This document shows positions 1,731 through 25,486 of a stretch of DNA of 64,000 bases, piece by piece (position 1 is the first letter of the stretch; each line of letters opens with the position of its first letter). The position numbers and the translations under genes were made by a program. Source of the DNA: Meandrina meandrites (lineage: Eukaryota > Cnidaria > Anthozoa > Scleractinia > Meandrinidae); assembly GCA_963693305.1 (NCBI GenBank), contig OY855914.1:24795472-24859471 (forward strand), written 5' to 3'. Under the pieces are notes generated by a model. That model searched no databases. It had not been told where the DNA came from and saw nothing but the letters and a program-made list of their open reading frames with translations.

Positions 1731-2059
1731 TAGAAGACGGCTGACACACTTTAGACTATACGAAATTTAAACATACCAAATTAGCCACCGAAAGTAAAAT
1801 GTGATTTGGCATTATACACGTTTCTCCATAACACAAATAAAGAGCCAATACAGTCGTGATGACAGCCGAATTTTTTCAAAATGTTCAAAACTTGTCTATA
1901 GGAGAAATACACTCGACAATTTTACGCGATTTTCACGAATTTTACAACATTACGTTATATGGGAATGTAAAACGAACACTTTTGTTTTGCACTAGTTTCT
2001 TCACCCGGGCTCTCTCGACCGTATGGCGCTTACGCTCTCTTTCGCCCTCTTTCTCTTTA

Positions 2060-2069
2060 CATTGCCCCC

Positions 2070-2111
<42 letters not shown>

Positions 2112-2160
2112 CTTCGCCACCACTTAGTTTCTTCATCCGGGTCCCCCCCCCCCCCCCCCG
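2060..2160. repeat. (AC)n microsatellite and poly-C run
   Basis: An AC dinucleotide run at about 2073-2110 is followed by a C homopolymer at about 2143-2159. Unit 2 has a shorter AC run and two C runs at 14540-14616. These runs create spurious open frames on both strands. Confidence 0.85.
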
Positions 2161-3053
2161 CATCGTGTTTACGCCCTCTCTTTCTTGTTCCCCTTCCACA
2201 TCCCCCACTCCACGCACTCCCATCACCATACCCCTCCCTCAAACACACACATCTTTGCCACCACCTCCGCCCCTGACCACAAGCTTTTGTCACACAGGCT
2301 TTTCGAAACTAAAATACTATTCGTGAAGCAACTTTAGTTTTAGATGATCTTGGTATCTTCTTTATTGATGCGAACACGAGGGTGAGGTAAGATATCAAGC
2401 ACGAAAGTGAAGCGGTGCGTCATCACATTTCCAAACACCGAGAAGAGAGTTGAAAATAAGACGCGCAGCGGAATATTTTTGACGAACTACGAGGAGTTTG
2501 GAAATATGAAACACTGTCTGGAGTGTTGTCATATCTTCTCAATAGAAACTGAAACTAAGGTTTAAATGGAGAAATAAAATCATAAAAATCTATGCTAATT
2601 ATGGTAAGATTTCCAAACTGCAATCATGGATCACAGCTATATATAGTGAGTTTGAGAATCAGATTTCTAATTTAAATCTTAGTGCTGTCAGTCTGTGTAC
2701 AGCCGCTGACTCCTCAAGATGCATAGGGCGGGCGTCTGTATTTCGACGTTGATAAACGGGTTCAAGGCCACGTGATTTAGTTGATCGATTGTTCACGGCG
2801 GTTTAATTAATATACTGTCACGTTTCAAAATGGCTGAACCAAATGACTTACGTTTTATCGTTCGTACTGGGAAATATCTGGAAACTTCCTACATTTTGTT
2901 GGTGAAGTTTACATTTAAATTTAAGTTCACTAAACAACATTTTTTAACTACGAAACTATTCCCCGGGTGCCGTGTTTTATCTTTAAATATTCTTCGGGTG
3001 GTGTGTTTTTTCCTGTAGATAAATTATAAAAGGACATCATTTCAGCTTTCTCG
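2161..3053. other. Non-coding 5' part of duplication unit 1
   Basis: No gene is seen. The stretch at 2340-2530 (from GATGATCTTGGTATC to CTGTCTGGAGTG) is the most strongly conserved part upstream of the gene when compared with unit 2 (14797-14980). It could hold regulatory DNA or be an older repeat. Confidence 0.4.
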
Positions 3054-3065
3054 TGCAAGGGTCGC

Positions 3066-3433
3066 GTAGTAAAGTCTGTATACGAGCCTAGGGGCCCATC
3101 AAGCCGGAGCTTATCCCGGTTTCCGTAGCATGAAGCGACTAGGAGTATTGCTACTCCCCTCTGGATGGGATGCTAGTCCATCGCAGGGTTACCCCCAGCA
3201 GTAAATTCGCCGGTACCCATTTATACAAATGTTTAAACAAGCAAGCAACCGTGGACGATGGTCCTACTGGTATACGTTGGATCAATAATGATCTGGGTGG
3301 AGAGAGGCACTATGAGAGTAAAGTATCTTGCCCAAGAACACAACGCAGTGCCCCGGCCAGGGCTCGAACCCGGACCTCCCGATCCGGAGTCCAGCGCACT
3401 AATATTAACCATTAGGCCACCGCGCCTACCACA
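3066..3433 (-). mobile_element. tRNA-derived SINE with 12-bp target-site duplication
   Basis: On the minus strand the head has a perfect Pol III A box (TGGCCTAATGG, plus coordinates 3409-3419) and B box (GGTTCGAGCCC, 3360-3370). A body with a GGGCAAGATACTTTACTC motif follows, then a tail carrying the GATGGACTAGCATCCCATCC motif common to many metazoan SINEs and LINE tails. Exact 12-bp repeats CAAGGGTCGCGT at 3054-3065 and 3434-3445 flank it, as expected for LINE-driven insertion. Unit 2 lacks it. Related copies lie at about 45930-46065 and 51620-51845. Confidence 0.85.
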
Positions 3434-3445
3434 CAAGGGTCGCGT

Positions 3446-4924
3446 GCAGACAGCATTTTTTTTTTGTTGTCTCCGCGTGTCACGTCAGACGATGGAGCAC
3501 TGATATGGTTTTAATGCATGGATAATTTATGCGAGGAACACGATTATCAACGGTAACACACAGGCTCACTTCTCCGAATTTTGTTGACGTGAACAGGCGG
3601 CTGTACACTCTCTATACTTCTCAACATCAATATTTTTATCGTGTAACCGCTTGAGTTGGTCATGTGACAAGTTGTTTCTCGGAATATCGGGGAACACGTG
3701 GGCCATAGATAGGCTCATTCATTTTCCTACGAAATTGAAATATGAAAAATGACAGTTTGTAGTTCCAATAGAAAAACCGTTTTCAAACGTTACTCTTTAT
3801 CTGCCCCTAAAAATGTCATTGCAACTTTCATTTCTTTCATGATCAGTTGAACCAAAATAAATATTGAACATGTAATGTTTCGGTTGTAGGCTGGTCGGAG
3901 TTCCCGTTGTCTTTTTGCTTAGGGTCACTGTTTCGATAATAATAATTAAAATAAAAACGGGTTGTTGCGAGTAATTTCGTGGCAGTAAGAAACTTTGAAA
4001 TCTTCTAAAATCGCTTTTTCGCTTCCTTACCAAGAAACAGGCCGGATCTGAATGGGGTTTAACGGAGAGCTGAGAATTTTTATTTTCCTGCTGAGAAATT
4101 GCGCGTTCTCTAACTGATAGCTGAGATCTGAGATCTGCGAAATTTACTGCATGCGATAGCTGAAAAATCGTGGAACATTTTACTGATAACAGAGATTCCA
4201 ACACGCCTTGCGAAACCCTTCAAGAGCACTCACTTGTGATATTTGTTGTACTTCCCTCTTTTGTTTTTATTTGAAGCCAACTGACGTTTACCTGAAATTC
4301 TTTCATGTTTGTTTGAAGCCGCCGACGTTTGCCGAAAATATCACACGCGACAAATATTACAAATTTCGCTTCTTGCTTTATATACAGCCCAGGTATGCTT
4401 TTCCGCTTAATTGTTTTCTTCTCGAGAGAGACAGCCCCAACTACCCAACGAGAGCAGATTATGTTTACACATTCGACACCACTGACTAATCTCTAAACCA
4501 TTAAAAAGCGCCTTCAATGTGTTTAGCCATTGACAAAATCACTCCAAACTGTGCATGATGCTGGATAAAAAACGGATTCTCAAAATGTTATTTTTTTATA
4601 TTTTTGAAACTGAAACATCTGAAATGAAATCTAACTCGATAATTTTATTTTCTAATTTCTCAAAGAACGTCTGACGTTGCGTTTCACGGACATCCGGTTT
4701 TTGTTTCCAAAACTAACAGTATTGAGCTTGACAGTGAAGTTTACTCCAAACAACAAGAAAGACAAGCCAAGGAATACGTGTTGGTCTTTATCAGCCATTT
4801 ATTTCAACTGACTGGCGTGGTGAGGAAAACTTGTCTTGTATTGTATGCTTTTTGTAATGTTTACCATAACAATCACAGCTTAATGTCTTTATAAACATGA
4901 AACTATCCCTTCTTGCTTTTGTAA
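3446..4924. other. Non-coding upstream region of TPR-CHAT copy 1
   Basis: No supported gene. It matches 15700-17219 in unit 2. Small open frames near 4208-4489 recur in unit 2 (16492-16770), but they differ in length and have no recognisable domain. Confidence 0.45.
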
Positions 4925-5153
4925 AGGCGGTGGCAAACGAGGACACATTGTTGGGGACACAAATGTTTCCATGTTTGCCCGCGTGCGCAACATTTGTTGC
5001 AGACACAAAATTTGTGTCCGAGACACAAAAATGTTTCTGATTTCTTTCAGAAACATTTTGTGTCCGCAACAAATGTTTCCCGGTTCGCGCAGCATAGAAA
5101 CAATCATGAGCAACAATGTGTCCGCAACATTGTGTCCTCGTTTGCCATCACCT
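4925..5153. mobile_element. Harbinger-like MITE inserted in unit 1 only
   Basis: The ends are inverted repeats (AGGCGGTGGCAAACGAGGAC against a closely matching reverse complement at the right end), and the interior is palindromic around ACACAAA and TTTGTGT motifs. It is flanked by TAA at 4922-4924 and 5154-5156. Unit 2 has a single TAA at the same place (17217-17219), so it is an empty site. A 3-bp TAA/TWA duplication fits PIF/Harbinger-type elements. Confidence 0.85.
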
Positions 5154-5156
5154 TAA

Positions 5157-6003
5157 GTTACATGTAAAATGTGTCAACGTAATAGCTTTTTCACTATGTG
5201 ATTAGTGAATGGTCACTCACTCCCGTGTTAAAAGCAGCTTTCTTGTCATATTTCAATTCACTTTTCAGATTTACAAAATTTCTTTTCAATTGAAGAAAAG
5301 TTCAAAAAATATTTGAATGCAAAAACACCATAACAATGTATCGAAACTGTGCTGACAAGGGCGGTACACGAACGAAAAACTTGCCTCAAGTGTCACTGCG
5401 CTATTCTGAACAATGTAATAAAACAATCACGTTCTACGACTCTACTGTGTAAAGAGAAAAGCGTTAATAGGGTCATGGATCGACGGATTTGTCCTTGAAA
5501 AACCGCACGGATTGCGGACGATAACAATAAACAGAGAGGAATCAATTCGCTTATTTTTAAAATACGACGGATCAGCTGAGAATTTCGCTCGGATTCCGAA
5601 CTCTTTCGGTCTTGATATTGGGTTCATGCATACTTAAAAAATTTCGGACGTCTGTTGGCCTTGTTCGGCCTTGGTCGCGTTTTGTCCATTTTGCTTTCTG
5701 ACGATACTCGTGTTACATCGGAATTGACGCGAGACAGACAATTGCAAGCAGTGACACCAAAATTCTTGACAAATTACCATAAACTGAGAAAACATCTGTA
5801 ACAGTTCCGTGCAGTGAAATTTTACATGCAACCGAGAAGGTTTTCAACTTATGCGGATCCGGATTTGAGCTAGTGAAAATAGAGACGCGGATTTGGCCAA
5901 AAATGTATATATAATTCAGATCGACGGATTTCTGTATCCCTATTGAGCCCCTTCTCTGTTTATGTTTTAGTTACGTTGAAACTTATACATTGAAGAAGGC
6001 GTC
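5157..6003 (+). promoter_or_regulatory. 5' flank and likely untranslated leader of TPR-CHAT copy 1
   Basis: This matches 17220-18059 upstream of copy 2. A polypyrimidine tract ending TTTTAG at 5970 resembles a splice acceptor, so the stretch from 5971 may be the end of a leader exon. An in-frame TGA at 5977-5979 rules out coding extension upstream of the ATG at 6004 within that exon. No clear TATA box could be assigned. Confidence 0.45.
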
Positions 6004-9000
6004 ATGAACAAAATAGAAGAAATCATAGAAGCCATCTTTATAGCCTTAGTTGTTGCCACTTTCCTTCTCAACACCGGTCGTGCACTGAAAGCCATCGAGT
6101 TATGCAAGGAAAGCTTGATTATGCTAAACAATAAAGCGCCGAGTATAAAACAGAAATTTGGCAAATTAGTTTACATCTTTTACGGAAAAATCTACTGTAC
6201 AATGCTCAAAGCGTACAGCCTTATCCACGATAACACAAGTGCTATAACCTATGGCAAAATACTTCTCGCCATTTACTGCGAGTGTGGTGACATAGTCTCC
6301 GAAGGGAATCTTAGCATAGACCTGGCGCAAAGATATCTGAGTCAATGTAAGTATGCTGAGGCAAAAGAACTTACTGAAAGAGCAATCACTATCATGAGAG
6401 AAACTGGGGATAAAGGAGCAGAAGCATTTGCATATCACACCCTAGGAACTGTGTTTAAATCTCTCGGTGAATATGTTAAGGCTAAAGAATATCTAGAGAA
6501 AGCACTTGCGATCAGCATGGAAATTGACGACAGAGCAGGAATAGCAACAACTTACGGAAACCTAGGAACTGTGTTTAAATCTCTCGGTGACTATGTTAAG
6601 GCTAAAGAATATCTAGAGAAAGCACTTGCGATCAACATGGAAATTGGTGACAGAGCAGGAATAGCAGTAAATTACGGAAACCTAGGAACTGTGTTTAAAT
6701 CTCTCGGTGACTATGTTAAGGCTAAAGAATGTTACGAAAAAGCACTTGCGATCAACATGGAAATTGGCGACAGAGCAGGAATAGCAGTAAATTACGAAAG
6801 CCTAGGACCTGTGTTTAGATCTCTCGGTGACTATGTCAAGGCTAAAGAATATCTCGAGAAAGCACTTGCGATCAACATGGAAATTGACAACAGAGAAGGA
6901 ATAGCAGCAAATTGCGAAAACCTAGGAACTGTGTTTATATCTCTCGGTGACTATGTCAAGGCTAAAGAATATATCGAGAAAGCACTTGCGATCAGCATGG
7001 AAATTGACGACAGAAAAGGAATAGCAGCAAATTGCGGAAACCTAGCAACTGTGTTTAAATCTCTCGGTGACTATGTCAAGGCTAAAGAATATCTCGAGAA
7101 AGCACTTGCGATCAACATGGAAATTGGAAACAGAGCAGGAATAGCAGTAAATTACGGAAACCTAGGAAATGTGTTGCAACGTCTCGGTGACCGTGTCAAG
7201 GCTAAAGAATATTTCGAGAAATCACTTGCGATCAACATGGAAATTGGCGACAGAGCAAGAATAGCACTAAATTACGGACACCTAGGAACTGTGTTTGAAT
7301 CTCTTGGTGACTATGTCAAGGCTAAAGAATATATCGAGAAAGCACTTGCGATCAACATGGAAATTGGTGTCAGAGCAGGAATAGCAGCAAATTACGAAAA
7401 CCTAGGAACTGTGCTTCATTCTCTCGGTGACTATGTCAACGCTAAAGAATATCTCGAAAAAGCACTTGCGATCGACATGGAAATTGACGCCGGAGTAGCA
7501 ATAGCAGCAAGTTACGGAAACCTAGGAACTGTGTTAAAATCTCTTGGTGACTATGTCAAGGCTAAGGAATATCTCGAGAAAGCACTTGCGATCAGCATGG
7601 AAATTGGTGACAGAGCAGGAGAAGCAGCATGTTACGGAACCCTAGCAACTGTGTCTTCTTCGCTCGGTGACTTTGTCAAGGCTAAAGAATATGTCGAGAA
7701 AGCACTTGCGATCAGCATGGAAATTGGTAACAGAGTCGGAGAAGCATTCTGTTACGGCAAGCAAGGACGTGTGTCTTATTCTCTTGGTGACTATGTCAAG
7801 GCTAGAGAATATATCGGGAAAGAACTTGCGATCAATAAAAAAATTGGTGACAAAGCAGGAGTAGCAAGCAGTTTCAGAAAGCTGGGAAATGTTTATCTAG
7901 GTCTTAGAAAATATAGAGAGAGTAAAGAACATCTGAAGAAAGCACTCGCGATGACAATTAACATTGGTGACAGAGCCGAAGAAGCATCACTTTACACAAG
8001 CCTTGGAGATCTAGATCAATCTCTTGGGGATAATTTCAAGGCTAAAATGTTCTATGAAAAGGCACTTGCAGTCGCAGTTGAAATTGGTAACAAAGGTCTT
8101 GAAGCAGTCAGTTACTTACGACTAGGTACAGCGCTTAACTTGCTCGATGATTACGTCTCAGCCGAAGAATATCTCGAGAAGGCACTTTCAATAAGTAAAG
8201 ATATTAGAGAAGGTGAATTTGAGTTTCAGTGTTACTGTTATCTTACACTGACGAAGCTATCGCAAGAAAAGTACCAGGAAGCTAATTGTTGCCTCTTACG
8301 AAGTATTGAAAAATGTGAAGAAATGCGAGGTTTTAATACAGACAACGATGAAATCAGCATATCTTTCGCGGACATGCATGATTTTCCCTACAAGAAGCTC
8401 AGTGCATTGTTTTGTTCAGCTAGAACACCTAACAATGCTCTGTATGTTGCAGAGCTGGGACGGGCTAGAGCCCTAGCAGACCTAATGGCAACTCAGTACT
8501 CCGCTGAAACACAGACATCAGCTAACCCGCAATCATGGATTGGTATTGAAAATATCATGACGAAACAAACCAACTGCACTTGTCTGTACATTTCTTATCA
8601 TGCCCAGAGAGTATTTTTGTGGATCCTGAAGACAAGCGGAGTCATTTCTTTCCGGAAAATGACAGTGGATAAAAATACTCTTTACAAGACACTAGCACAG
8701 CCAGCTAAAGATTTGGATGAATTTTTTGCTATGATGGCTAAAAGTTTTCGCAGCTTTGGTATTTTGCCGGAAGAGGTTTGCGAAAATCGATCTTTAAATG
8801 ACATTGAGCCGGCTGAAACTGATTCTTCTCAGGAGGAGAGCCACGCAGCCTTGCGACAGGGAGAAGATGAAGAAAACCCCGAACCGAGTTTAAGTTTGTT
8901 TCACAAAATGCTCATCAATCCTGTGTCCGACTTACTTGACGAGCCTGAAATCATCATTGTTCCCGATCGCAACTTGTACCGTGTTCCATTTGTAGCTTTA

Positions 9001-9753
9001 CTCGATAAAAATGGAAAGTATTTATCAGAGACTTTCAGGATTCGCATCGTTCCTTCACTGACCACTCTCAAGCTCATTCAGGACAGTCCTGCAGACTATC
9101 ACAGTCAGACTGGTGCTCTGATAGTGGGTGATCCTGATGTTGGTCATGTGATTTTCAACGGACGTCTCTACAAAAATTTTTATCCATTGTCTGGTGCAAG
9201 AGAGGAAGCAGAAATGATTGGGCGACTGCTGGGCGTTCAGCCTTTGTTAGGGCAGCACGCAACGAAGCAGGCGGTACTTGAAAGGATAGCTTCTGTGAGT
9301 CTGATACATTTTGCTGCACATGGTGATGCTGAAAGAGGAGAAATTGCGCTTTCCCCTCCAAGATCTACCACTGAGATCCCACAAGAAGACGACTACCTTT
9401 TGAAAATGTCCGACATTTCAAAGGTTCAACTGCGAGCTAAACTGGTAGTACTGAGTTGCTGTCACAGTGGCCGTGGACAAATTAGGGCGGAGGGAGCTGT
9501 TGGAATCGCTCGTGCGTTCTTAGGATCCGGTGCACGCTCAGTGTTGGTGGCACTTTGGGCCTTAGAAGACATCGCAACAAAACAGTTCATGAGTTGTTTC
9601 TACGAGCACCTTGTTCGCGGGGAAAGCGGCAGTGAATCTCTTCACGAGGCCATGAAGTGGATGAGAGATAACAGTTTTACCAAAGTTTCCGAGTGGGCAC
9701 CGTTTATGCTGATTGGTGATAACGTGACATTTGACTTCGCAAAAGAAAAGTAA
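6004..9753 (+). CDS. TPR-CHAT protein, copy 1 (TTC28-like putative cysteine protease)
   Basis: Single long open frame of 1249 aa. Residues 1-100 are helical and TPR-like. Residues 101-140 form a diverged TPR and about 141-740 hold fifteen 40-residue TPRs of consensus LGxVFxSLGDYVKAKEY. A bridge with ELGRARALADLM (about 817-828) is typical of CHAT proteins. An acidic linker (about 938-961) precedes the CHAT (caspase-like) domain, about 970-1240. The likely dyad is intact: H1106 in HFAAHG and C1153 in VVLSCCHSG (second Cys, by alignment to the usual LSAC-x-TG motif). TPR-CHAT proteins are known or predicted proteases; bacterial relatives are activated by a bound partner. Coral models of this type are often called tetratricopeptide repeat protein 28-like. 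The start is set by the in-frame stop at 5977. The TAA at 9751 sits inside a GTAAGT splice donor, so a spliced form could continue into 10295-10358. Substrate and location are unknown. Confidence 0.92.
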   Translation: MNKIEEIIEAIFIALVVATFLLNTGRALKAIELCKESLIMLNNKAPSIKQKFGKLVYIFYGKIYCTMLKAYSLIHDNTSAITYGKILLAIYCECGDIVSEGNLSIDLAQRYLSQCKYAEAKELTERAITIMRETGDKGAEAFAYHTLGTVFKSLGEYVKAKEYLEKALAISMEIDDRAGIATTYGNLGTVFKSLGDYVKAKEYLEKALAINMEIGDRAGIAVNYGNLGTVFKSLGDYVKAKECYEKALAINMEIGDRAGIAVNYESLGPVFRSLGDYVKAKEYLEKALAINMEIDNREGIAANCENLGTVFISLGDYVKAKEYIEKALAISMEIDDRKGIAANCGNLATVFKSLGDYVKAKEYLEKALAINMEIGNRAGIAVNYGNLGNVLQRLGDRVKAKEYFEKSLAINMEIGDRARIALNYGHLGTVFESLGDYVKAKEYIEKALAINMEIGVRAGIAANYENLGTVLHSLGDYVNAKEYLEKALAIDMEIDAGVAIAASYGNLGTVLKSLGDYVKAKEYLEKALAISMEIGDRAGEAACYGTLATVSSSLGDFVKAKEYVEKALAISMEIGNRVGEAFCYGKQGRVSYSLGDYVKAREYIGKELAINKKIGDKAGVASSFRKLGNVYLGLRKYRESKEHLKKALAMTINIGDRAEEASLYTSLGDLDQSLGDNFKAKMFYEKALAVAVEIGNKGLEAVSYLRLGTALNLLDDYVSAEEYLEKALSISKDIREGEFEFQCYCYLTLTKLSQEKYQEANCCLLRSIEKCEEMRGFNTDNDEISISFADMHDFPYKKLSALFCSARTPNNALYVAELGRARALADLMATQYSAETQTSANPQSWIGIENIMTKQTNCTCLYISYHAQRVFLWILKTSGVISFRKMTVDKNTLYKTLAQPAKDLDEFFAMMAKSFRSFGILPEEVCENRSLNDIEPAETDSSQEESHAALRQGEDEENPEPSLSLFHKMLINPVSDLLDEPEIIIVPDRNLYRVPFVALLDKNGKYLSETFRIRIVPSLTTLKLIQDSPADYHSQTGALIVGDPDVGHVIFNGRLYKNFYPLSGAREEAEMIGRLLGVQPLLGQHATKQAVLERIASVSLIHFAAHGDAERGEIALSPPRSTTEIPQEDDYLLKMSDISKVQLRAKLVVLSCCHSGRGQIRAEGAVGIARAFLGSGARSVLVALWALEDIATKQFMSCFYEHLVRGESGSESLHEAMKWMRDNSFTKVSEWAPFMLIGDNVTFDFAKEK

Positions 9754-10358
9754 GTTTAACATAGCGAAGAAAACATTTCATGATTTTGGTTAGTTAGTTT
9801 TCTGTGTGAGTTAAATCCAAGTTAAAAGTTAAAAGTATCTTTCATTTCATTACAACTTATGAAGTCAGGTTCAAAATGTTACCGTGTCGTCTCAACTGAA
9901 TTCCTGCAGTTGTTGAGATATTTGCAAAACCAAAACACTTGTTGGTGATGATCAGATCACGTATTTTTGTGATCTGTCTACAAAATTAAAGTGGTTTCTT
10001 TCAGAAGCTTCCTATCTATTTAAAAACAATTTTCAATAAGCAAAAGTAGTGTTTTCAGTTCAGATCTTTTTCTGGGCTAATATCTGACATTTCAAGTTTT
10101 GGACAGTGCTGGAAGTCAAAATATGAAGTAGTGTGTCGGGTCGACTTCATTATCAGCTGGTATGGCTGCTTGAAACCAACACCGCTGTTACTTTTTGAAA
10201 AGACTTAAAGCGAAATTCTAATACACAGATACAGAGTTGAACCTTTTTCGATCAAGTTTCCTTAACTTCAGTTTTGTCTTTTTTGTTGTTGTAGGAAGAA
10301 GAGGCTTTTATCAGTGGAGGACTGCATGCAGACAAAATCAAGCAATGATCATGCGTGA
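9750..10358 (+). other. Possible 3' intron and short alternative last exon of TPR-CHAT copy 1
   Basis: A strong donor (AAAA|GTAAGT, intron from 9750) and acceptor (TTGTTGTTGTAG, ending 10294) would replace the terminal K-stop with KKKRLLSVEDCMQTKSSNDHA and a TGA at 10356-10358. Unit 2 keeps donor, acceptor, frame and stop position (22154-22675, exon 22676-22739). All five base differences between the two short exons change the amino acid, so selection for the peptide is not shown, and splicing inside the 3' UTR is an alternative. Confidence 0.5.
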
Positions 10359-11121
10359 AAGAATTCCTGCGATTACAGTGTAAAGTAACAAAAACAGCAT
10401 TGATTTCCATTTACGTTTACAGTCGAAGCTCTCTTAACGGACACTCTCGTAAGCGGACAGCTCTACTTACGGCCGCCTTGTTTGAAACCCCGTTTTAACT
10501 CCCATACAAACTTTACGTTTATTATCTGTTAATTAAAAGCATAACATTTCTATTTCTCTCAAGCAGCTAAGTAACAGTTTTTATTTTGATTTTAAAGGTT
10601 TTTTCCAAAGATCTCGTAAGAATCGAACGGGTGAAATACGCGAAGTTTTAAGTTAAAATAGGCTGAGTGAGTTGGTTGGGGTGGGAGGGGAGGGGAGGGG
10701 GGGGGGGGGGGGGTAAGGGAGTGGAAGGGGAGGGAACAGTTCCAAAACTAGCTCTAACTTTTCGTTTGTCCAAAACCGTACCGGATCAAAACTGGGTAAG
10801 TGATAGGAATAACAGGTCCCGGTGGAACCGAAAAGCCTATCCAGGTCGATTTCTCATTGGTTCGGATCGGTGTCAATCGCTTCTTTTAAAGAAAACGCTT
10901 CTTTTGGTGGGGTTGGGTGGGGCGGGTCAGAGAGGGGGCTTTACTACTATGATCGGGCTGCTTCAATGTAAAGTGTACCGGATCTGGGCGCGGATCCACG
11001 TACTATAATCGTGTCAAATGTGAAAACAAGCCCAATGATAAATGTCTGAAGAAGTAGGAGAGAGAGAAAACGCAATCTCGAGCTACAGACGAGTACCAGT
11101 CCCTATGCTAATATGTTTCTT
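10359..11121. other. Downstream non-coding DNA of copy 1
   Basis: No gene is seen. A segment at about 10435-10510, absent from unit 2, lies between two copies of TTTACGTTTA and begins CAGTCGAAGCTC. A G-homopolymer lies at about 10698-10713. CCAGG at 10841-10845 and TAAAGT at 10969-10974 are the empty sites of two elements inserted in unit 2. Confidence 0.55.
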
Positions 11122-11264
11122 TGTGCGAGAGAAGATTGGTTACGAGGTGGGCGGAGGAACGCCGGGAATCACGGGAAGACGCAAAGGATTCTGTCCCTTG
11201 GTCTCTTCCCGTGACTTCTCGCGCGCCTTCATCCACTCTAGTTTTCAGTTCTCTCTCGCACCAA
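11122..11264. repeat. Fold-back repeat, unit 1
   Basis: Inverted arms: GTGCGAGAGAA at the left against TTCTCTCTCGCAC at the right, and an inner pair CACGGGAAGAC and TCTTCCCGTG. The same structure is at 23781-23919. It gives rise to similar short open frames in both units, which I do not regard as genes. Confidence 0.65.
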
Positions 11265-14190: not shown

Positions 14191-14569
14191 TTTGGGTAAG
14201 GAAGAGAAGGCGGCTGACACACTTCAGACTATATGAAATTGAAACAAACCAAATTAACCTCCGAAAGTAAAATGTGATTTGGTATTACGCACGTTTCTCT
14301 AAAATATAAATAAAGAACCAAGACAGTAGTGATGACAGCCAAATTTTTTTGTTTTTGCTCAAAACTTGTCCGTAGGAGAAATACACTCAACAATTTTAAG
14401 CGATTTTCACGAATCGTACAACATTACTTATATGGGACTGTAAAACGAACACTTTTAGTTTTACACTAGCTTCTCCACCCGGGTTCCCTCGACCATATGG
14501 CGCTCACGCTCTCTTTTGCCCTCGTTCCCTTTCCATTCCCCCCCCCCCCCCCACACACACACAGCTTCG

Positions 14570-15458
14570 CCACCACTTAGTTTCTTCATCCGGGTATTCC
14601 CCCCCCCCCCCCCCCGCATCGTGTTTACGCCCTCTTTCTCTTTTTCTCCTTCCACATCTCCCACTCCACCCACTCCCGCCACCATACCCCCTCCCTCAAA
14701 CACACACACATCTTTGCCACCACCTCCACCCATGACCACAAGCTTTTCTCACACAGGCTTTTCAAAACTAAAATACTATTAAACAACGTTAGTTTTTGAT
14801 GATCTTGGTATCTTCTTTATTGATGCGAACACGAGGATGAGGTAAGATATCAAGCACGAAAGTGAATCGGTGCGTCATCACATTTCCAAACACCGAGAAG
14901 AGAGTTGAAAATAAGACGCGCAGCGGAATATTTTTGACGAACTACGAGGAGTTTGGAAATATGAAACACTGTCTGGAGTGTTTTTTATACCTTCTCAATA
15001 GAAACTGAAACTAAGGATTAGATGGAGAAATAAAATCATAAAAATCATGCTAATTATGATAAGATTTCTAAACTACAATCACAGATCACAGTTGTATATG
15101 GTGAGTTTGAGAATCAGATTTCTAATTTGAATCTTAGTGCTGTTAGTCTGTGTACAGCCGCTGACTCCTCAAGATGCAGAGGGCGGGCGTCTGTGCTTCG
15201 ACGTTGATAATCGTGTTCAAGGCCACGTGATTTTTCACGGAGCGAGTTGAAAATGTCCTGATTAGTTGATCGATTGTTTACGGCGGTTTAATAAAGTGTC
15301 ACGTTTCCAAATGGCTAAACCAAATGACTTATGTTTTATCGGTCGTACTGGGAAATATCTGGAAACTTCCTACATTTTTGTTAGTGAACTTACATTTAAT
15401 TTTAGTTTAGAAGCCCGTTTAGTGAAATTAAACAGCATTTTATAGCTACGAAAGTATT
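14570..15458. other. Non-coding 5' part of unit 2
   Basis: No gene. It matches 2100-2960. C-homopolymers at 14540-14551 and 14600-14616 and short CA runs create false open frames. Confidence 0.45.
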
Positions 15459-15570
15459 GGTTTAAACCCAAAGGCATGGTACACTTAGTATGGATTGGAG
15501 GGACAGGCGTCCTCCAATCCATACTAAGCTCTCTTATTTTAAAAGTGTACCATGCCTTTGTGTTTAAACC
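15459..15570. mobile_element. Nested fold-back element in unit 2 only
   Basis: Outer arms 15459-15486 and 15543-15570 (GGTTTAAACCCAAAGGCATG and its near-exact reverse complement, 27 of 28) enclose a second inverted pair (CTTAGTATGGATTGGAGG and its reverse complement) with a short loop. It lies near where unit 1 has the SINE. It is predicted to form a strong hairpin. Confidence 0.75.
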
Positions 15571-18059
15571 AATAACCATGAAATTTGGTGAATTTACTAA
15601 TTTTTGGATGCTCTTTCAGATGACGTGTCCCATTTTGAATTCAATCGATATTGAATGTTCGCACTAAGAAAAAATATGTTCGTACCCAGTCCCCTGCTCG
15701 TTTAGAACATGGCCAATGGAGCACTGATATGGTTTTAATATTAATGCATGCATACATAATTTATGCGAGGAACACGATTATCAACGGTAACACACAGGCT
15801 CCTCTCTCCGAATTTTGTTGAGGTGAACAGGAGGCCGTACACGGGATAAATCCTGTGAGAATCTATGTCGCTTTCTATACTAATTAATCAACATCGGTAT
15901 TTCTACCTTGTAACTGCTTGAGTTGGCAACACATGTGTTTCCCGCATGACGTCACGTGACAACCTGTTTTCTCGGAATATCCTGAAACACGTGGATCATA
16001 GATAGCCTCATTCATTTTCCTACGAAATTGAAATATGAAAAATGACAGTTTGTAGTTCCAATAGAAAAGCGTTTTCAAACGTTACTCTTTATCTGCCCCT
16101 AAAAATGCCATTGCGACTTTCATTTCTTTTATGATCAGTTGAACCAAAATAAATATTGAACATGTAATGTTTTGGTTGTAAGCTGGTCGGAGTTCCCGTT
16201 GTCTTTTTGCTTAGGGTCTCTGTTTCGATAATAATAATTAAAATAAAAACGTGTTGTTTCGAGTAATTTCGTGGCAGTAAGAAACTTTGTAATCGCTTTT
16301 TCGCTTCCTTACCAAGAATCAGGCCGGTTCTGAATAGGGTTTAACTGATAGCTGCATGAGAATTGGTCATAATTTTTATTATACAAAAAAAAAACAACTG
16401 ATAGCTGAGATTTGAGATCTGCAAAATTTACTGCATGGATAGCTGACAAATCGTGGAACATTTTATCTGATAACAGAGATTCCAACACGCCTTGCGAAAC
16501 CCTTCAAGAGTACTCACTTGTGATATTTGTTGTACTTCCCTCTTTTGTTTTTATTTGAAACCAACTGTCATTTACCTGAAATTCTTTCATGTTTGTTTGA
16601 AGCCGTCGACGTTTGCCAAAATTATCACCCGCGACAAATATTACAAATTTCGCTTCTTGCTTTATATACAGCCCGGGTATGTTCTTCTGCTTAATTATTT
16701 TCTTCTTGAGAGAGACAGCCCAAACTACAAAACGAGAGCAGATTATGTTTACATATTCGACACCAACTAATCTCTGAACCATTAACAAACTCCTTCAATG
16801 TGTTTATCCGTCGACACAATCACTCCAAACTTTGCACGATGCTGGATAAAAAAGGCATTCTCAAAATTCTGTTTTTTTTTTTAATTTTTGAAACTGAAAC
16901 ATCTGAAATGAAATCTAACTCGATAATTTTATTTTCTAATTTCTCAAAGAACGTCTGACGTTGCGTTTCACGGGCATCCGGTTTTTGTTTCCAAAGCTTA
17001 CAGTATTAAATAAGCTTGACAGTAAAGTTTACTCCATATACAAGAAATACAAGCCAAGGAATTCGTGTCTGGTCTTTATCAGTCTTTTATTTTAACTGAC
17101 GTTGGTGTGGTGAGTAAAAGTTGTATGCTTTTTATAGTGTCTACCAGTTTAATTACAGCGTAATGTCTTTGTTTAGCCATGAGATATAAACATGAAACTA
17201 TCCCTTCTTGCTTTTGTAAGTTACAAGTGAAATGTGTAAACGTAGTTTAAGAGAATATCGTGGTAATAGCTTATTCACTATGTGACCAGTGAATGGTCAC
17301 TTATCCCGTGTTTAAAGCAGCCTTGTCGTCATATTTCAAGTCTTTTTCTGATTTTCAAAAATTTCTTTGAAATTGAAGAAAACTTAAAAAACTATTTTGG
17401 TACAAAACACCATAACAATGTATCAAAAAACATGCCTTGTCACTGCGCTATTCTGAATAATGTAATAAAACAATCACGTTCTACGACTCTACTCTGTAAG
17501 GGGAAGAACGTTAATAGGTTCGCGAATCGACTGATTTTTCCTTGAAAAGGCGCACGGATTGCGGACGATAACAACAAACAGAGTGGAATCAATTCGCGGA
17601 TTTCCAAAATACGACGGATCAGCTGAGAATTTCGCTCAGATTCCGAACTCTTTCTGTCTTGACATTGGGTTCAGGCATACTTAAAAAAAATTCGGACCTC
17701 TGTTGGCATTGTTCGGCCTTGGTCACGTTTTGTCCATTTTGCTTTCTGACGATACTCGTGTTACATCGGAATCAGTGACGCATAAACGAGACAGACAATT
17801 GCAAGCAGTGACATCAAAATTCTTGACAAATTACCATATACTGAGAAAACATCTGTAACACTTCCGTGCAGTGAAATTTTACATGCAACAGAAGGTTTTC
17901 AACTTATGCGGATCCGGATTTGAGCTAGTGAAAATAGAGACGCGGATTTGGCCAAAAATGTATATATAGTTCGGATCGACGGATTTCTGTATCCCTATTG
18001 AAACCCCTTCTCTGTTTATTTTTTAGTTACGTTGAAACTTATACATTGAAGAAGGCGTC
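15571..18059 (+). other. Non-coding upstream region and leader of TPR-CHAT copy 2
   Basis: No supported gene. It matches 3460-6003. The polypyrimidine tract ending TTTTAG near 18026 and the in-frame TGA before the ATG are conserved with copy 1. Confidence 0.45.
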
Positions 18060-21000
18060 ATGAACATCATAGACGAAATCATAGAAGCCATCGGTATAGC
18101 CTTAGTTGTTGCCACTTTCCTTCTCAACACCGGTCGTGCACTGAAAGCCATCGAGTTATGCAAGGAAAGCTTGATTATGCTAAACAATATAGCGCCGAGT
18201 ATAACACAGCAATTTAAAAAATTAGTTTACATATTTTACGGAAAAATCTACTATAGAATGTTTAAAGCGTACAGCCTTATCCACGATAACACAAGTGCGA
18301 TAACATATGGCAAAAAACTTCTCGCCATTTACTGTGAGTGTGGTGACACAGTCTCCGAAGGGAATCTTAGCATAATCCTGGCGCAAACATATCTGACTCA
18401 ATGTAAGTATGCTGAGGCAAAAGAACTTACTGAAAGAGCAATCACTATCATGAGAGAAACTGGGAATAAAAGAGGAGAAGCAATCGCATATAGTACCCTA
18501 GGAAATGTGTTTAAATCTCTTGGTGATTATGTCAAGGCTAAAGAATATTGCGAGAAAGCACTTGCGATCAGCATGGAAATTGGTGACAGAGCAGGAATAG
18601 CAGCAAGTTACGGAAACCTAGCAACTGTGTTTAAATCTCTCGGTGACTATGTCAAGGCTGAAGAATACCTCGAGAAAGCACTTGCGATCAACATGGAAAT
18701 TGGCCACAGAGCAGTAATAGCAGCAAGTTATGGAAGCCTAGGAACTCTGTTTGAATCTCTCGGTGACTATGTCAAGGCAAAAGAATATGTCGAGAAAGAA
18801 CTTGCGATCAGCATGGAAATTGGTGACAGAGCAGGAATAGCAGCAACTTACGGAAACCTAGGAACTGTGTTTAAATCTCTCGGTGACTATGTCAAGGCTA
18901 AAGAATATCTGGAGAAAGCACTTGCGATCAACATGGAAGTTGGTGACAGAGCAGGAATAGCAGCAACTTACGGAAACCTAGGAACTGTGTTGCAACGTCT
19001 CTGTGACCATGTCAAGGCTAAAGAATATTACGAGAAAGCACTTGCGATCAGCATGGAAATTGGTCACAGAGCAGGAATAGCAGCAAGTTACGGAAACCTA
19101 GCAACTGTGCTTAAATATCTCGGTGACTATGTCAAGGCTAAAGAATATCTCGAGAAAGCATTAGCGATCAACATGAAAATTGGTAACAGAGCAGGAATAA
19201 AAGAAAATTATGCAAACCTAGGAACTGTGTTTAAATCTCTAGGTGGCTATGTCAAAGCTAAAGAATATCTCGAGAAAGCACTTGCGATCAGCATGGAAAT
19301 TGGTGACACGGCAAGAACGCCAGCAAATTATGCAAACCTAGCAACTGTGTTTAAATCTCTCGGTGACTATGTCAAGGCTAAAGAATATTTCGAGAAAGCA
19401 CTTGCGATCAGCATGGAAATTGGTGACAGAGCAGTAATAGCAGCAAGTTACGGAAACCTAGCAACTTTGTTTAAATCTCTCGGTGACTATCTCAAGGCTA
19501 AAGAACACCTCGAGAAAGCACTTGCGATCAGCATGGAAATTGACGACAGAGAAGAATTAGCAGCAAATTGCGGAAACCTAGGAACTGTGTTTATATCTCT
19601 CGGTGACTATGTCAAGGCTAAAGAACACCTCGAGAAAGCACTTGCGATCAACATGGAAATTGACGACAGAGAAGGAATAGCAGCAAATTGCGGAAACCTA
19701 GGAACTGTGTTTCAATCTCTCGGTGACTATCTCAAGGCTAAAGAATACCTCGAGAAAGCACTTGCGATCAGCATGGAAATTGGTCACAGAGCAGGAATAG
19801 CAGCAACTTACGGAAACCTAGCAACTGTGTTTATATCTCTCGGTGACTATGTCAAGGCTAAAGAATATCTCGAGAAAGCACTTGCGATCAACATGGAAAT
19901 TGGTGACAGAGCAGGAATAGCAGGAAATTACGGAAACCTAGGAAATGTGTTGCAACGTCTCGGTGACCGTGTCAAGGCTAAAGAATATTTCGAGAAATCA
20001 CTTGCGATCAACATGGAAATTGGCGACAGAGCAAGAATAGCACTAAATTACGGACACCTAGGAACTGTGTTTGAATCTCTTGGTGACTATGTCAAGGCTA
20101 AAGAATATTTCGAGAAAGCACTTGCGATCAGCATGGAAATTGACGACACAGTAGCAATAGCAGCAAGTTACGAATGCCTAGGAACTGTGTTTCTCTGTGA
20201 CTATGTCAAAGCTAAAGAATATTTCGAGAAAGCACTTGCGATCAAAAGGAAAATTGGTGACAGAGCTGGAGTAGCAGGAAGTTTAAGAGAGCTGGGAAAT
20301 GTTTATCTAGGTCTTAGAAAATATAGACAGAGTAAAGAACATCTGAAGAGAGCACTCGCGATCACAATTAACATTGGTGACAGAGCCTTAGAAGCATCAC
20401 TTTACACAAGCCTTGGAGATCTAGATCAATCTCTTGGGGATAATTTCAAGGCTAAAATGTTCTATGAAAAGGCACTTGCAGTCGCAGTTGAAATTGGTGA
20501 CAAAGTTCTTGAAGCGGGCAGCTACTTACGACTAGGAGTGGCGCTTTACTCGCTCGATGATTACGTCTCAGCCGAAGAATACCTTGAGAAGGCACTTTCA
20601 ATAAGTAAAGATGTGGGTGAGGGTGAGTTTGTATGTTACTGTTATCTTACACTGACGAAGCTATCGCAAGAAAAGTACCAGGAAACTTATTGCTGCCTCT
20701 TACGAAGTATTGAAAAATGCGAAGAAATGCGAGGTTTTAATACGGACAACGATGAAATCAACATATCTTTCGCGGACAAGCATGATTTCCCCTACAAGTC
20801 CCTCAGTGCATTGTTTTCTGCAGCAAGAACTCCTATCTATGCTCTGTATGTTGCAGAGCTGGGACGGGCTAGAGCCCTAGCAGACCTGATGGCAACTCAG
20901 TACTCCGCTGAAACACACATATCAGCTGACCCGCAATCATGGATTGGCATTGAAAATGTCATGACGAAACAAGCCAACTGCACTTGTCTGTACATTTCTT

Positions 21001-22157
21001 ATCATGCTCAAGCAGTATTTTTGTGGATTCTGAAGACAAGCGGAGTCATTTCTTTCCGGGAAATGAAAGTGGATAAAAATACTCTTTACAAGACACTAGC
21101 ACAGCCAGCTAAAGATTTGAATGAATTTTTTGCTATCATGGCTAAAAGTTTTCGCAGCTTTGGTATTTTACCGGAAGAGGTTTGCGAAGATCGATCTTTA
21201 AATGACATCGAGCCGGCTGAAACTGATTCTTCTCAGGAGGAGAGCCACGCAGCTTTGCGACAGGGAGAGGATGAAGAAAACGCCGAACCGAGTTTAACTT
21301 TGTTTCACAAAATACTCATCAATCCTGTGTCCGACTTACTTGACGAGCCTGAAATCATCATTGTTCCCGATCGCAACTTGTTTCGTGTTCCATTTGCAGC
21401 TTTACTCGATAAAAATGGAAAGTATTTATCGGAGACTTTCAGGATTCGCATCGTTCCTTCACTGACCACTCTCAAGCTCATTCAGGACAGTCCGGCAGAC
21501 TATCACAGACAGACTGGTGCTCTGATAGTGGGTGATCCTGATGTTGGTCATGTGATTTTCAAGGGACGTCTCTACGAAAATTTTTATCCATTGTCTGGTG
21601 CAAGAGAGGAAGCAGAAATGATTGGGCGACTGCTGGGCGTTCAGCCTTTGTTAGGGCAGCACGCAACGAAGCAGGCGGTACTTCAAAGGATAGCTTCTGT
21701 GAGTCTGATACATTTTGCTGCACATGGTGATGCTGAAAGAGGAGAAATTGCCCTTGCCCCTCCAGGCTCCACTGCTGAGATTCCACAAGAAGACGACTAC
21801 CTTTTGAAAATGTCTGACATTTCAAAAGTTCAACTGCGAGCTAAACTGGTAGTACTGAGTTGCTGTCACAGTGGCCGTGGACAAATTAGGGCGGAGGGAG
21901 CTGTTGGAATCGCTCGTGCGTTCTTAGGATCTGGTGCACGCTCAGTATTGGTGGCACTTTGGGCCTTAGAAGACATCGCAACAAAGCAGTTCATGAGTTG
22001 TTTCTACGAGCACCTTGTTCGCGGGGAAAGCGCCAGTGAATCTCTTCACGAGGCCATGAAGTGGATGAGAGATAACGGCTTTACCAAGGTTTCCGAGTGG
22101 GCACCGTTTATGCTCATTGGTGATAACGTGACATTTGACTTCGCAAAAGAAAAGTAA
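18060..22157 (+). CDS. TPR-CHAT protein, copy 2 (TTC28-like putative cysteine protease)
   Basis: Single open frame of 1365 aa, paralogue of 6004-9753. The order is the same: helical N-terminus, one diverged TPR, then eighteen TPRs of 40 residues (copy 1 has fifteen), bridge with ELGRARALADLM, acidic linker and CHAT domain. The 116-residue excess equals three 40-residue repeats minus four residues lost at two places (GTVFLCDYV in one TPR, and GEGEFVCYCY). The dyad H1222 (HFAAHG) and C1269 (VVLSCCHSG) is intact. The CHAT region is nearly identical to copy 1, but the TPRs do not line up one to one, except two adjacent repeats (containing NVLQRLGDRVKAKEYFEKS) shared almost base for base. No frameshift or internal stop, so it is likely functional. 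Start and stop contexts match copy 1, including TAA inside a GTAAGT donor. It may be an innate-immune or cell-death sensor protease (inference). Confidence 0.92.
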   Translation: MNIIDEIIEAIGIALVVATFLLNTGRALKAIELCKESLIMLNNIAPSITQQFKKLVYIFYGKIYYRMFKAYSLIHDNTSAITYGKKLLAIYCECGDTVSEGNLSIILAQTYLTQCKYAEAKELTERAITIMRETGNKRGEAIAYSTLGNVFKSLGDYVKAKEYCEKALAISMEIGDRAGIAASYGNLATVFKSLGDYVKAEEYLEKALAINMEIGHRAVIAASYGSLGTLFESLGDYVKAKEYVEKELAISMEIGDRAGIAATYGNLGTVFKSLGDYVKAKEYLEKALAINMEVGDRAGIAATYGNLGTVLQRLCDHVKAKEYYEKALAISMEIGHRAGIAASYGNLATVLKYLGDYVKAKEYLEKALAINMKIGNRAGIKENYANLGTVFKSLGGYVKAKEYLEKALAISMEIGDTARTPANYANLATVFKSLGDYVKAKEYFEKALAISMEIGDRAVIAASYGNLATLFKSLGDYLKAKEHLEKALAISMEIDDREELAANCGNLGTVFISLGDYVKAKEHLEKALAINMEIDDREGIAANCGNLGTVFQSLGDYLKAKEYLEKALAISMEIGHRAGIAATYGNLATVFISLGDYVKAKEYLEKALAINMEIGDRAGIAGNYGNLGNVLQRLGDRVKAKEYFEKSLAINMEIGDRARIALNYGHLGTVFESLGDYVKAKEYFEKALAISMEIDDTVAIAASYECLGTVFLCDYVKAKEYFEKALAIKRKIGDRAGVAGSLRELGNVYLGLRKYRQSKEHLKRALAITINIGDRALEASLYTSLGDLDQSLGDNFKAKMFYEKALAVAVEIGDKVLEAGSYLRLGVALYSLDDYVSAEEYLEKALSISKDVGEGEFVCYCYLTLTKLSQEKYQETYCCLLRSIEKCEEMRGFNTDNDEINISFADKHDFPYKSLSALFSAARTPIYALYVAELGRARALADLMATQYSAETHISADPQSWIGIENVMTKQANCTCLYISYHAQAVFLWILKTSGVISFREMKVDKNTLYKTLAQPAKDLNEFFAIMAKSFRSFGILPEEVCEDRSLNDIEPAETDSSQEESHAALRQGEDEENAEPSLTLFHKILINPVSDLLDEPEIIIVPDRNLFRVPFAALLDKNGKYLSETFRIRIVPSLTTLKLIQDSPADYHRQTGALIVGDPDVGHVIFKGRLYENFYPLSGAREEAEMIGRLLGVQPLLGQHATKQAVLQRIASVSLIHFAAHGDAERGEIALAPPGSTAEIPQEDDYLLKMSDISKVQLRAKLVVLSCCHSGRGQIRAEGAVGIARAFLGSGARSVLVALWALEDIATKQFMSCFYEHLVRGESASESLHEAMKWMRDNGFTKVSEWAPFMLIGDNVTFDFAKEK

Positions 22158-22739
22158 GTTTAACATAGCGAAGAAAACATTTCATGATTTTGATTAGTTA
22201 GTTTTCTGTGTGAGTTCTTAAATCCAAGTTAAAAGATAAAAGTATATCTTTCATTTCATTACAACTTATGAAGTCTGGTTCAAAATGTTACCGTGTCGTT
22301 TCAACTGAATTCCTGCAGTTGTTGAGATATTTGCTAAACCAAAACACTTGTTGGTGATGATCAGATCACGTATTTTTGTGATCTGTCTACAAAATTAAAG
22401 TGGTTTCTTTGAGAAGCTTTCTATCGATTTAAAAACAATTTTCAATAAGCAAAAGTAGTGTTTTCAGTTCATTTCAAGTTTTGGACAGCGCTGGAAGTAA
22501 AAATATGAAGTAGAGTGTCGGGTCGACTTCATTATCAGCTGGGATGGCTGCTTGAAACCAACACCGCTTTTACTTTTTGAAAAGACTTAATGGGAAATTC
22601 TAATACACAGATACAGAGTTGAACCTTTTCGATCAATTTTCCTTAACTTCAGTTTTGTCCTTTTTGTTGTTGTAGGAAGAAGAGGCCTTTATCAGCGGAG
22701 GACTCCATGCAGACAAAACCAAGCAATGATCATGGGTGA
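22154..22739 (+). other. Possible 3' intron and short alternative last exon of TPR-CHAT copy 2
   Basis: The donor GTAAGT from 22154 and acceptor GTTGTAG ending 22675 lead to exon 22676-22739, coding KKKRPLSAEDSMQTKPSNDHG and TGA. This is parallel to copy 1 in position and frame. Confidence 0.5.
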
Positions 22740-22977
22740 AGGAATTCCTGCGATTACGGTGTAAAGTAACAAAAACAGCGTTGATTTTCATTTACGTTTA
22801 TTATCTGTTAATTAAAAGCATAACATTTCTATTTCTCTCAAGCAGCTAAGTAACAGTTTTTATTTCAAATTGATTTTAAAGGTTTTTTCCACGATAATAT
22901 TTAAAAAGATCTCGTAAGAATCGAACGGGTGAAATACGCGAAGTTTTAAGATAAAATGGGAAAGTGAGTTGGTTGGT

Positions 22978-23008
<31 letters not shown>

Positions 23009-23125
23009 GAGTGGAAGGGAGTGGAAGGGGAGGGTACAGTTCCAAAACTAGGTCTAACCGGATCAAAACTGGGTAAGCGATAGGAATAACAGGTCCCGTG
23101 GGAACCGAAAAGTCTATTATCCAGG
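22740..23125. other. Downstream non-coding DNA of copy 2
   Basis: No gene. A (GT)n tract followed by a G run lies at 22976-23009, where unit 1 has only a G run. CCAGG at 23121-23125 is the left target-site copy of the next element. Confidence 0.5.
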
Positions 23126-23142
23126 CCCCAGTTGTTCAAAGA

Positions 23143-23177
<35 letters not shown>

Positions 23178-23218
23178 GGCGGATAAGTGTTGGGAAAACA
23201 AATTAGACTATCCACTGA

Positions 23219-23249
<31 letters not shown>

Positions 23250-23268
23250 TCCCTTTGAGCAACTGGGG
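23126..23268. mobile_element. MITE with long inverted repeats, unit 2 only
   Basis: Ends CCCCAGTTG and CAACTGGGG. The arms are about 60 bp and match with few mismatches (shared GGATAACGCTATCCACCGG). Flanked by CCAGG at 23121-23125 and 23269-23273. Unit 1 has one CCAGG at the same place (10841-10845). A degraded relative is at about 51173-51275. Confidence 0.88.
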
Positions 23269-23410
23269 CCAGGTCGATTTCTCATTGGTTAGGATCGGTG
23301 TCTATCGCTTCTTTTAAAGGAAAACGCTTCTTTTGGTGGGGTTGGGTGGGGGGGGGGGGGTGGGGGAGACAGAGAGGGGGCTTTACTATCGGGCTGCTTA
23401 CATGTAAAGT

Positions 23411-23626
23411 AATGTCTTTACAGCGTTGAACAACTTTTTCGAAAACCGTTATACACTAAAAAGAAAAATTACAACACATATATAAATGCTAATTTGAATA
23501 GAAAAAACAATAGTTAGATAACAAAAGGGAAAAAACGCCTTAACCAAAGATAAACTGAATTAACAATTCCTGTGAAATACATTACAATTTAAATAACAAT
23601 CGTCAAATACTTTCGGAATAACAACA
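23411..23626. mobile_element. 216-bp AT-rich insertion in unit 2 only
   Basis: Flanked by TAAAGT at 23405-23410 and 23627-23632, with a single TAAAGT in unit 1 (10969-10974). It has no clear inverted ends or coding capacity, and its superfamily is unknown. Confidence 0.75.
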
Positions 23627-23780
23627 TAAAGTGTACCGGATCTGGGCGCAGATTCATGTACTATAATCGTGTCAAATGTGAAAACAAGCCCAATGATAAA
23701 TGTCTGAAGAAGTGGAAGAGAGAGAAAACACAATCTCGAGATACAGACGGGTACCAGTCCATATTTTAATATGTTTCTTT

Positions 23781-23919
23781 GTGCGAGAGAAGATTGGTTA
23801 CGAAGTGGGCGGAGGCACGCCGGGAATCACGGGAAGACGCAAAGGATTCTGTCCCTTGGTGTCTTCCCGTGACTTCTCGCGCGCCTTCATCCACTCTAGT
23901 TTTCAGTTCTCTCTCGCAC
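23781..23919. repeat. Fold-back repeat, unit 2
   Basis: Counterpart of 11122-11264 with the same GTGCGAGAGAA arms and the inner CACGGGAAGAC and TCTTCCCGTG pair. Confidence 0.65.
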
Positions 23920-24506
23920 CAAAAACATGCAAATAGTGACTGGGCACAAGTCTGCTTTTCGAGTTGCGAGAAATGTTTATTGTAATCTTTATGATTAAGA
24001 AAAGACATAACTGGACACATAAAGTCGAACATGATAAACTTATTAATCATACAGTTATTGTAGGAAAAAAACTATTTCATTGTTGTCGATGTAAGATTGT
24101 TAAGCGGCGCTTGACCTCAGGAGGGAACTCCAATATGAAATGACCGGGTATGCTGATCGTTTCGGTTAGCTGTGCGAATTACCGACTTTGGTCTCCCTTG
24201 GAGGTTTTGATCAGGGTTGCATGTGAAGAAATAAAAAATGACGTTGTCACACTGTGCTTGGAGTCTTGACCAATCAGATGTGAAAATGATGGGTACTTAC
24301 CATTTAGCCAAAAAAACCTGGAAAGTTCGGTTGTAAGTCAAATGGGACAGTAATTTCCCGGAAAATCCATTCGGAAATCGTGGACTCACCTCCAGAGGTA
24401 CTCATCTTTTTCCGTTCGGAACGGAACATCGGAAATTTACATTTACACGGTTTCCCAGTGCCAGTCTCTCATCAACGGAAAACAATAACCGAAAACCGAA
24501 CCAGAT

Positions 24507-24691
24507 ATGTCCAGGATTGAACGCTAATGAGATGCACGTTCTTTATGATAGACATCACAAAGTGTCCTCTTCAATAAAAGTTCACCAAAACACACCTAAT
24601 TCTTTCAAATATGAAGTAATATGGAAATGTGAAACAACGCAGTCAAACATGAAGTACTTATTAAACAATACTTTCGTTCAATCCTAGACAT
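24507..24691. mobile_element. MITE with ATGTCCAGGATTGAACG ends, unit 2 only
   Basis: 17-bp inverted ends with one mismatch (24507-24523 and 24675-24691). Unit 1 has no such sequence between its AACCGGACTGG and GGTAAGCAGC (about 11863-11886). The duplicated target is imprecise (GAACCAGATATG against GAACTGCATATG). Confidence 0.75.
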
Positions 24692-25486
24692 AAGTGAACC
24701 GAACTGCATATGATAAGCAGCATCCCTTTCGGTTGCTTTACTGATTTTGTGAAAACTCTTACCATTTTTCAATGGTCATTCAAACCGCTTCCTATCGACA
24801 AATTGTAAGCACCCGATATCTTTCAGGAATCAAGAAAGCTTGAGCCACGTCCAGATTGATCTCCTTTAGAGGTTTAATTCAGATTTTTCCGCGAGCATTC
24901 CCGTCCCTTTCATATGGTAGCTCCCCCTCCACGAAGCTTGCCGCTACTAAAACCTAAACTTAGAGCTACATGTATATACAAAATAGAACTAATTAGAGTC
25001 AGGAAAAGCAAACTAGATGCTATACATTACAAAAAGTCGCAACCGTTATTGGTTTATTTAGCATAGTATTGTTGCACCTACTTTAAAGAGTGTAAAATTT
25101 AGATTTTTAATTCATCAAAATTAAACATAGGCGAATATCGATATTAAATCAAACTGTATTTTCTATCTGTAAGCTAAGGTTTTTGCTGTCAATAATTTGT
25201 TCTGAATTTTCATAGCATATAGATACAGTGGTAATTAAAAAGTGTAATGAAGAGCCAATTAAAATGTGAAAGAGAAAAGTTGTTGTAGCGCTGATACTTA
25301 ATATTATTTCTTTTCTTTTTTATTGCATCACCGTCACAAGTTTCATACATCAGTTACATACCGTAGAATTCCTAAATTACCGATTCCCGTTAAATTTCGG
25401 ATTTAGCTGACCAAAGTCTAGTGACCAATGTCTGAATTTATAACAAAGCCTGGTCTGCTGTTTTTTCCAGCAAAGGCACAGGTATT
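24692..25486. other. End of unit 2
   Basis: Non-coding; it matches 11880-12576 until about 25423. Nothing recognisable follows until the microsatellite. Confidence 0.45.

Follow-up and report, generated by a model that had tools for sequence, protein, structure and literature searches.

Tandem TPR-CHAT paralogues in the coral Meandrina meandrites combine a constrained putative protease domain with an unconstrained TPR array

Proteins in which an array of tetratricopeptide repeats (TPRs) precedes a CHAT domain form a family known from corals, and its expansion has been published for Acropora (PMC12314368), Montipora (PMC9145168) and Pocillopora damicornis (PMC6208414). According to PMC12314368, two Acropora genomes carry 276 and 304 TPR-CHAT genes, Pocillopora effusa carries 362 and the corals compared range between 6 and 362, with one or two copies in most non-anthozoan animals. 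The same source describes the expansion as independent in the two Acropora species, with tandem duplicates at places where the assembly has no gaps and with TPR stretches of very variable length; the expansions sit outside syntenic regions, in sequence with many transposon domains, and CHAT is among the most enriched domains in the non-syntenic part of both genomes. It names human TTC28 as a putative homologue, in which the roles of TPR and CHAT are poorly understood. Elsewhere TPR proteins with CHAT are placed among coral-diversified genes, with apoptotic signalling or bleaching suggested (PMC6208414), TTC28-like TPRs are listed among the domains fused to TRADD-N in animals (PMC8195603), 56 mostly down-regulated TTC28-like genes are reported among those differentially expressed in bacterium-treated Pocillopora under heat stress (PMC10668361), and a TTC28 is one of the selected loci listed for Acropora millepora, in the symbiosis category (PMC10363134). 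In bacterial Craspase, the type III-E CRISPR system of the TPR-CHAT protein Csx29, a linker shifts once a non-self RNA target is bound, and the active site of CHAT is thereby opened (PMC9729208). Here we report that a 64-kb stretch of the Meandrina meandrites genome (contig OY855914.1, positions 24,795,472 to 24,859,471; hereafter the window) carries two genes which, judged from their sequences, are tandem paralogues of the already known coral TPR-CHAT (TTC28-like) family, and that between them the CHAT domain is constrained and the adjacent TPR array is not.

The original prediction of a tandem duplication of about 11 kb with two intact TPR-CHAT genes is borne out by self-comparison of the window, by the open reading frames and by Pfam. 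In the blastn self-comparison 1726-12579 matches 14199-25423 in direct orientation in collinear blocks of 86-91% identity, with an offset that grows from 12,473 bp (5' end) to 12,844 bp (3' end). A second self-comparison, restricted to the non-coding flanks, produced blocks of 81-91% identity. The features of the two units are:

1726..12579, + strand: duplicated unit 1 (blastn self-comparison), possibly extending through a minisatellite to 14183
14199..25423, + strand: duplicated unit 2 (blastn self-comparison), possibly extending through a minisatellite to 26069
6004..9749, + strand: main coding exon of TPR-CHAT copy 1 (open reading frame; Pfam TPR_12 and CHAT; N-terminus like that of relatives)
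6436..7875, + strand: copy 1 TPR array, 12 full units of 40 amino acids, residues 145-624 (120-bp tandem repeat; unit list)
8887..9720, + strand: copy 1 CHAT, residues 962-1239 (Pfam PF12770, E 9.6e-55)
9319-9321 and 9460-9462, + strand: copy 1 dyad, His1106 and Cys1153 (dyad alignment)
10295..10358, + strand: probable 3' mini-exon of copy 1 (donor GTAAGT at position 9750, AG as acceptor, reading frame maintained)
18060..22153, + strand: main coding exon of TPR-CHAT copy 2 (open reading frame; Pfam)
18492..20171, + strand: copy 2 TPR array, 14 full units of 40 amino acids, residues 145-704, then a shortened unit (120-bp tandem repeat; unit list)
21291..22124, + strand: copy 2 CHAT, residues 1078-1355, with His1222 and Cys1269 (Pfam PF12770, E 2.6e-55; motif positions)
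22676..22739, + strand: probable 3' mini-exon of copy 2 (same splice signals as copy 1, reading frame maintained)
13388..14183, strand not set: 20-bp minisatellite 3' of unit 1 (tandem repeat search, self-comparison)
25849..26069, strand not set: 20-bp minisatellite 3' of unit 2, same repeat as at unit 1 (tandem repeat search, self-comparison)

Because the same 20-bp repeat lies 3' of both units, it may be part of what was duplicated. Outside the two open frames a tblastn search of the window (E 1e-3) gave no further TPR-CHAT stretch; the window has two gene copies.

Each gene is full-length, as had been predicted, with a long TPR array followed by a single C-terminal CHAT stretch (PF12770) in one open frame. 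Unspliced, the frames run over 6004-9753 (stop ending at 9753; 1249 amino acids) and 18060-22157 (stop ending at 22157; 1365 amino acids). The start methionine is well placed, since both copies have an in-frame stop shortly upstream (at 5977 in copy 1) and the same kind of N-terminal sequence begins four relatives (P0004, P0005, P0008 and P0020); this segment is without a Pfam match and common to relatives. At the other end a GTAAGT donor overlaps the apparent stop in both copies, with an AG acceptor ≈0.5 kb downstream. Both coding regions thus probably end in a spliced mini-exon, which would add 20 residues (1269 amino acids for copy 1 and 1385 for copy 2), and the C-terminus of the Oculina relative P0008 is similar to the end so encoded.

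The N-terminal arrays match TPR_12 with E 2.3e-150 and 5.7e-138 in the two copies (PF13424/PF13176), and Tandem Repeats Finder assigned the 120-bp repeat copy numbers of 11.9 (copy 1) and 14.9 (copy 2). The PADLOC matches fall within the TPR region; the NCBIfam matches are to TPR-containing models, few of them above cut-off, and to these copy 1 adds one weak caspase match (E 6.6e-4, under its cut-off). In the CHAT domain the His-Cys dyad, which had been noted as apparently intact, is indeed intact and, in the sequence alignment, falls exactly on the active site of Craspase. It had also been proposed that the domain be modelled and set against CHAT and separase structures, and the predicted model has the separase/CHAT (caspase/separase-like) fold. 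For this model we used an alignment of the two window sequences, 16 relatives and 15 of 16 bacterial sequences (L016 omitted); in alignment A3, 12 of the 16 bacterial sequences were used. A first model of residues 740-1249, built on the two window sequences and 31 relatives, was poor (pLDDT 62.2, pTM 0.45) and its Foldseek list was not used. By sequence no separase family model was present at E ≤0.001 among the 25 Pfam families of copy 1 or among the 25 of 26 families shown for copy 2.

With respect to family membership, at least 2922 of 7988 scored candidates matched at E ≤0.001. Among the 120 relatives listed most are without a name, and the named ones all come from Oculina patagonica, Orbicella faveolata or Stylophora pistillata, the closest of them being coral TTC28-like or uncharacterised proteins; this supports the earlier assignment of the locus to an animal, and to a coral. 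The 27 pattern matches on viral contigs include no gene for a relative. That the family is expanding was correctly predicted, and is already published in the three reports cited above.

The two copies had also been described as recently doubled and near-identical, neither of which is supported. Over the whole gene the synonymous divergence (Ks) is 0.114 and the nonsynonymous divergence (Ka) 0.079, the Jukes-Cantor distance over alignable non-coding flank sequence, gaps excluded, is 0.085 upstream and 0.064 downstream, and the TPR arrays differ in length; the pair is therefore not near-identical, and a recent origin is not supported. These figures also bear on whether the pair is an assembly artefact, that is, a single locus or two alleles placed end to end. 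Duplicates of this kind are known from assemblies of heterozygous animals. A non-coding mismatch of 6-8%, the Ks value and the unequal repeat numbers argue that an assembly duplicate or two alleles are unlikely, since flanks, coding sequence and repeat number have all diverged, and tandem arrays of this family have been published in Acropora from gap-free regions (PMC12314368); we regard an artefact as very improbable.

Divergence is unevenly distributed along the protein. Ka/Ks between the two copies rises from 0.25 for CHAT (residues 962-1239) through 0.35 (780-1249) and 0.43 (641-960) to 0.99 for the TPR region (141-640). The change counts of 141-640 differ from those of 780-1249 (p = 0.002) and from those of CHAT (p = 0.0015). 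A constrained protease domain thus stands beside an unconstrained TPR array. Since the TPR units are not matched to their orthologues in this comparison, all 26 full units were compared among themselves, which gave a ratio of nonsynonymous to synonymous differences (pN/pS) of 1.23 over all positions. For TPRs in general, positions 2, 5, 9, 12, 13, 33 and 34 are described as the most variable and as exposed on the concave face (PMC1261162). In our units pN/pS was 3.38 (bootstrap 1.86-16.84) at these seven positions and 0.97 at the other 33, and control positions on helix B and the convex face were constrained (pN 0.026, pS 0.137). Amino-acid change at the seven positions exceeded that of random sets of non-signature positions (p = 0.0097), and entropy was also higher there among the 1266 distinct units of the 120 listed relatives (p = 0.013). 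We ourselves assigned canonical TPR numbers to the 40-residue unit and decided which of its positions count as convex or as signature. These data are suggestive of diversification of the groove, and no proof of it. For the concave positions alone (5 codons) iqtree remained at its start values, so we do not take as proof the likelihood grid, whose optimum, omega 5, was the upper limit of the values used. Among the papers listed in our literature searches, no title or abstract opening concerns groove-level selection in coral TPR-CHAT proteins.

One TPR unit, at residue 385 of copy 1 and residue 625 of copy 2, is identical at 120 of 120 bases between the copies and sits within a 184-bp identical stretch (approximately 7149-7332 in copy 1, around 19932 in copy 2). 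Because the units next most similar to it differ by at least 12 bases, gene conversion between the two genes is suggested at this stretch.

On balance, and by no wide measure, we favour a reading in which the TPR superhelix gates the CHAT protease and the groove diversifies while the protease is kept constant. The superhelix of near-identical 40-residue units would bind a partner or ligand on its concave face; binding, modelled on Craspase, would bring the active site of CHAT out of its resting state into an active geometry; and the activated cysteine protease, of the separase/Csx29 fold, would cleave a specific host substrate. What is bound would be diversified by gene duplication, by TPR units being gained or lost and by amino-acid substitutions in the groove. 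The "sensor-protease" of the original prediction gains limited new support from the contrast between array and CHAT and is otherwise still an inference. A wider version, which we consider doubtful, would make the coral TPR-CHAT genes an NLR-like repertoire of receptor-proteases: one conserved separase-type protease would be coupled to a TPR groove shaped by diversifying selection, and new binding specificities for microbes or symbionts would arise as TPR units turn over and as tandem copies undergo gene conversion with each other.

Several observations weigh against gating combined with a diversifying groove, among them some that suit relaxed constraint, under which TPR arrays would drift by unequal crossing-over and gene conversion, without selection for new binding. 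Over all repeat positions the codon model estimated omega at 1.30, an excess over 1 that is not significant (lnL -1060.96 vs -1062.40), and the bootstrap probability of a ratio below 1 was 0.059. Sets of seven random non-signature positions reached the concave pN/pS in 9% of cases for both copies together (p = 0.09), in 21% for copy 1 and in 7% for copy 2; leaving out two diverged units of copy 1 gave p = 0.036 in an exploratory analysis. The eight structural signature positions have a pN/pS of 1.47 (0.87-2.97), and the N-terminal residues 1-140, outside the regular units, a Ka/Ks of 1.01 on few changes; together these favour relaxed constraint and lower our confidence. Mispairing of units in 141-640 affects Ka as well as Ks, units within one gene are not independent, variability at concave positions is general among TPRs (PMC1261162), and positions 33 and 34 are conserved in these arrays. 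Moreover, the concave positions come from the literature but were picked after the per-position tables had been seen (five positions at first, later the seven of PMC1261162), so the test was not blind. The identical 184-bp stretch over one unit also suits drift with conversion. Relaxed constraint nevertheless has to accommodate the constrained helix-B and convex positions and the excess of amino-acid change and entropy on the concave face, and we judge it unlikely.

A housekeeping role would account for the pair differently: coral TTC28-like proteins would be scaffolds of cell division or the cytoskeleton, as human TTC28/TPRBK, with CHAT structural or cutting a cell-cycle substrate and copy number mostly a by-product of unstable regions. 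Human TTC28 has the same architecture, and the role reported for it lies in the cell cycle and cytokinesis and not in immunity (PMC12314368, PMC9145168), which also tells against the reading that we favour; the best PDB matches of the array, engineered repeats aside, are GPSM2/LGN and Pins, and the transposon-rich setting of the Acropora expansions (PMC12314368) is in keeping with unstable regions. Hundreds of copies and independent expansion in two Acropora species (PMC12314368) fit a repertoire better, as do the kept dyad and the constrained CHAT beside an unconstrained array when compared with a single scaffold, and we therefore give the housekeeping role a low probability. Six of the 120 listed relatives (P0014, P0046, P0044, P0122, P0115 and P0092) have lost a dyad residue, another point against the favoured reading; these are possibly pseudo-proteases or decoys within it. 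For the gated protease that we favour, the intact catalytic centre and the constrained protease domain next to an unconstrained array make the receptor-protease idea testable.

Elsewhere in the window, 430-960 (+ strand), left of the duplicated units, holds part of a homeobox gene with the homeodomain end QVWFQNRRARWRK (Pfam PF00046, E 2.5e-4, 21.2 bits vs a cut-off of 22.9), the one match in a Pfam scan of 10 of the 97 other open stretches of at least 75 codons. Two further minisatellites are present: ≈92 copies of an 18-bp unit at 26393-28002, with extreme GC skew (-0.80 in 26001-28000), and a strongly skewed 5.5-kb array of ≈131 copies of a 42-bp unit at 34835-40354, where long frames are open on both strands because 42 is divisible by three. 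A tRNA-Ser(GCU) gene lies at 56685-56757 (+ strand); nothing else in the window reaches an Rfam gathering threshold.

Finally, the pair can be placed among the known systems. The earlier comparison with type III-E CRISPR and gasdermin loci is an analogy based on fold and dyad. Csx29 of Craspase has 13-17% identity to the coral protein in structural alignments, and differs from the coral copies in that these have a long array of near-identical 40-residue TPRs. DdvA (8rot), a bacterial CHAT protein deposited as a transmembrane anti-sigma factor, is also among the structural matches. Separase is alike in predicted fold, whereas Pfam reads the coral protein as a TPR array plus CHAT. Human TTC28/TPRBK, as described in PMC12314368 and PMC9145168, likewise has a TPR array and a C-terminal CHAT. 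Closest are the coral TPR-CHAT/TTC28-like proteins, which share the domain order, the tandem duplication and the variable TPR length with the Meandrina pair, and from which we saw no structural difference.
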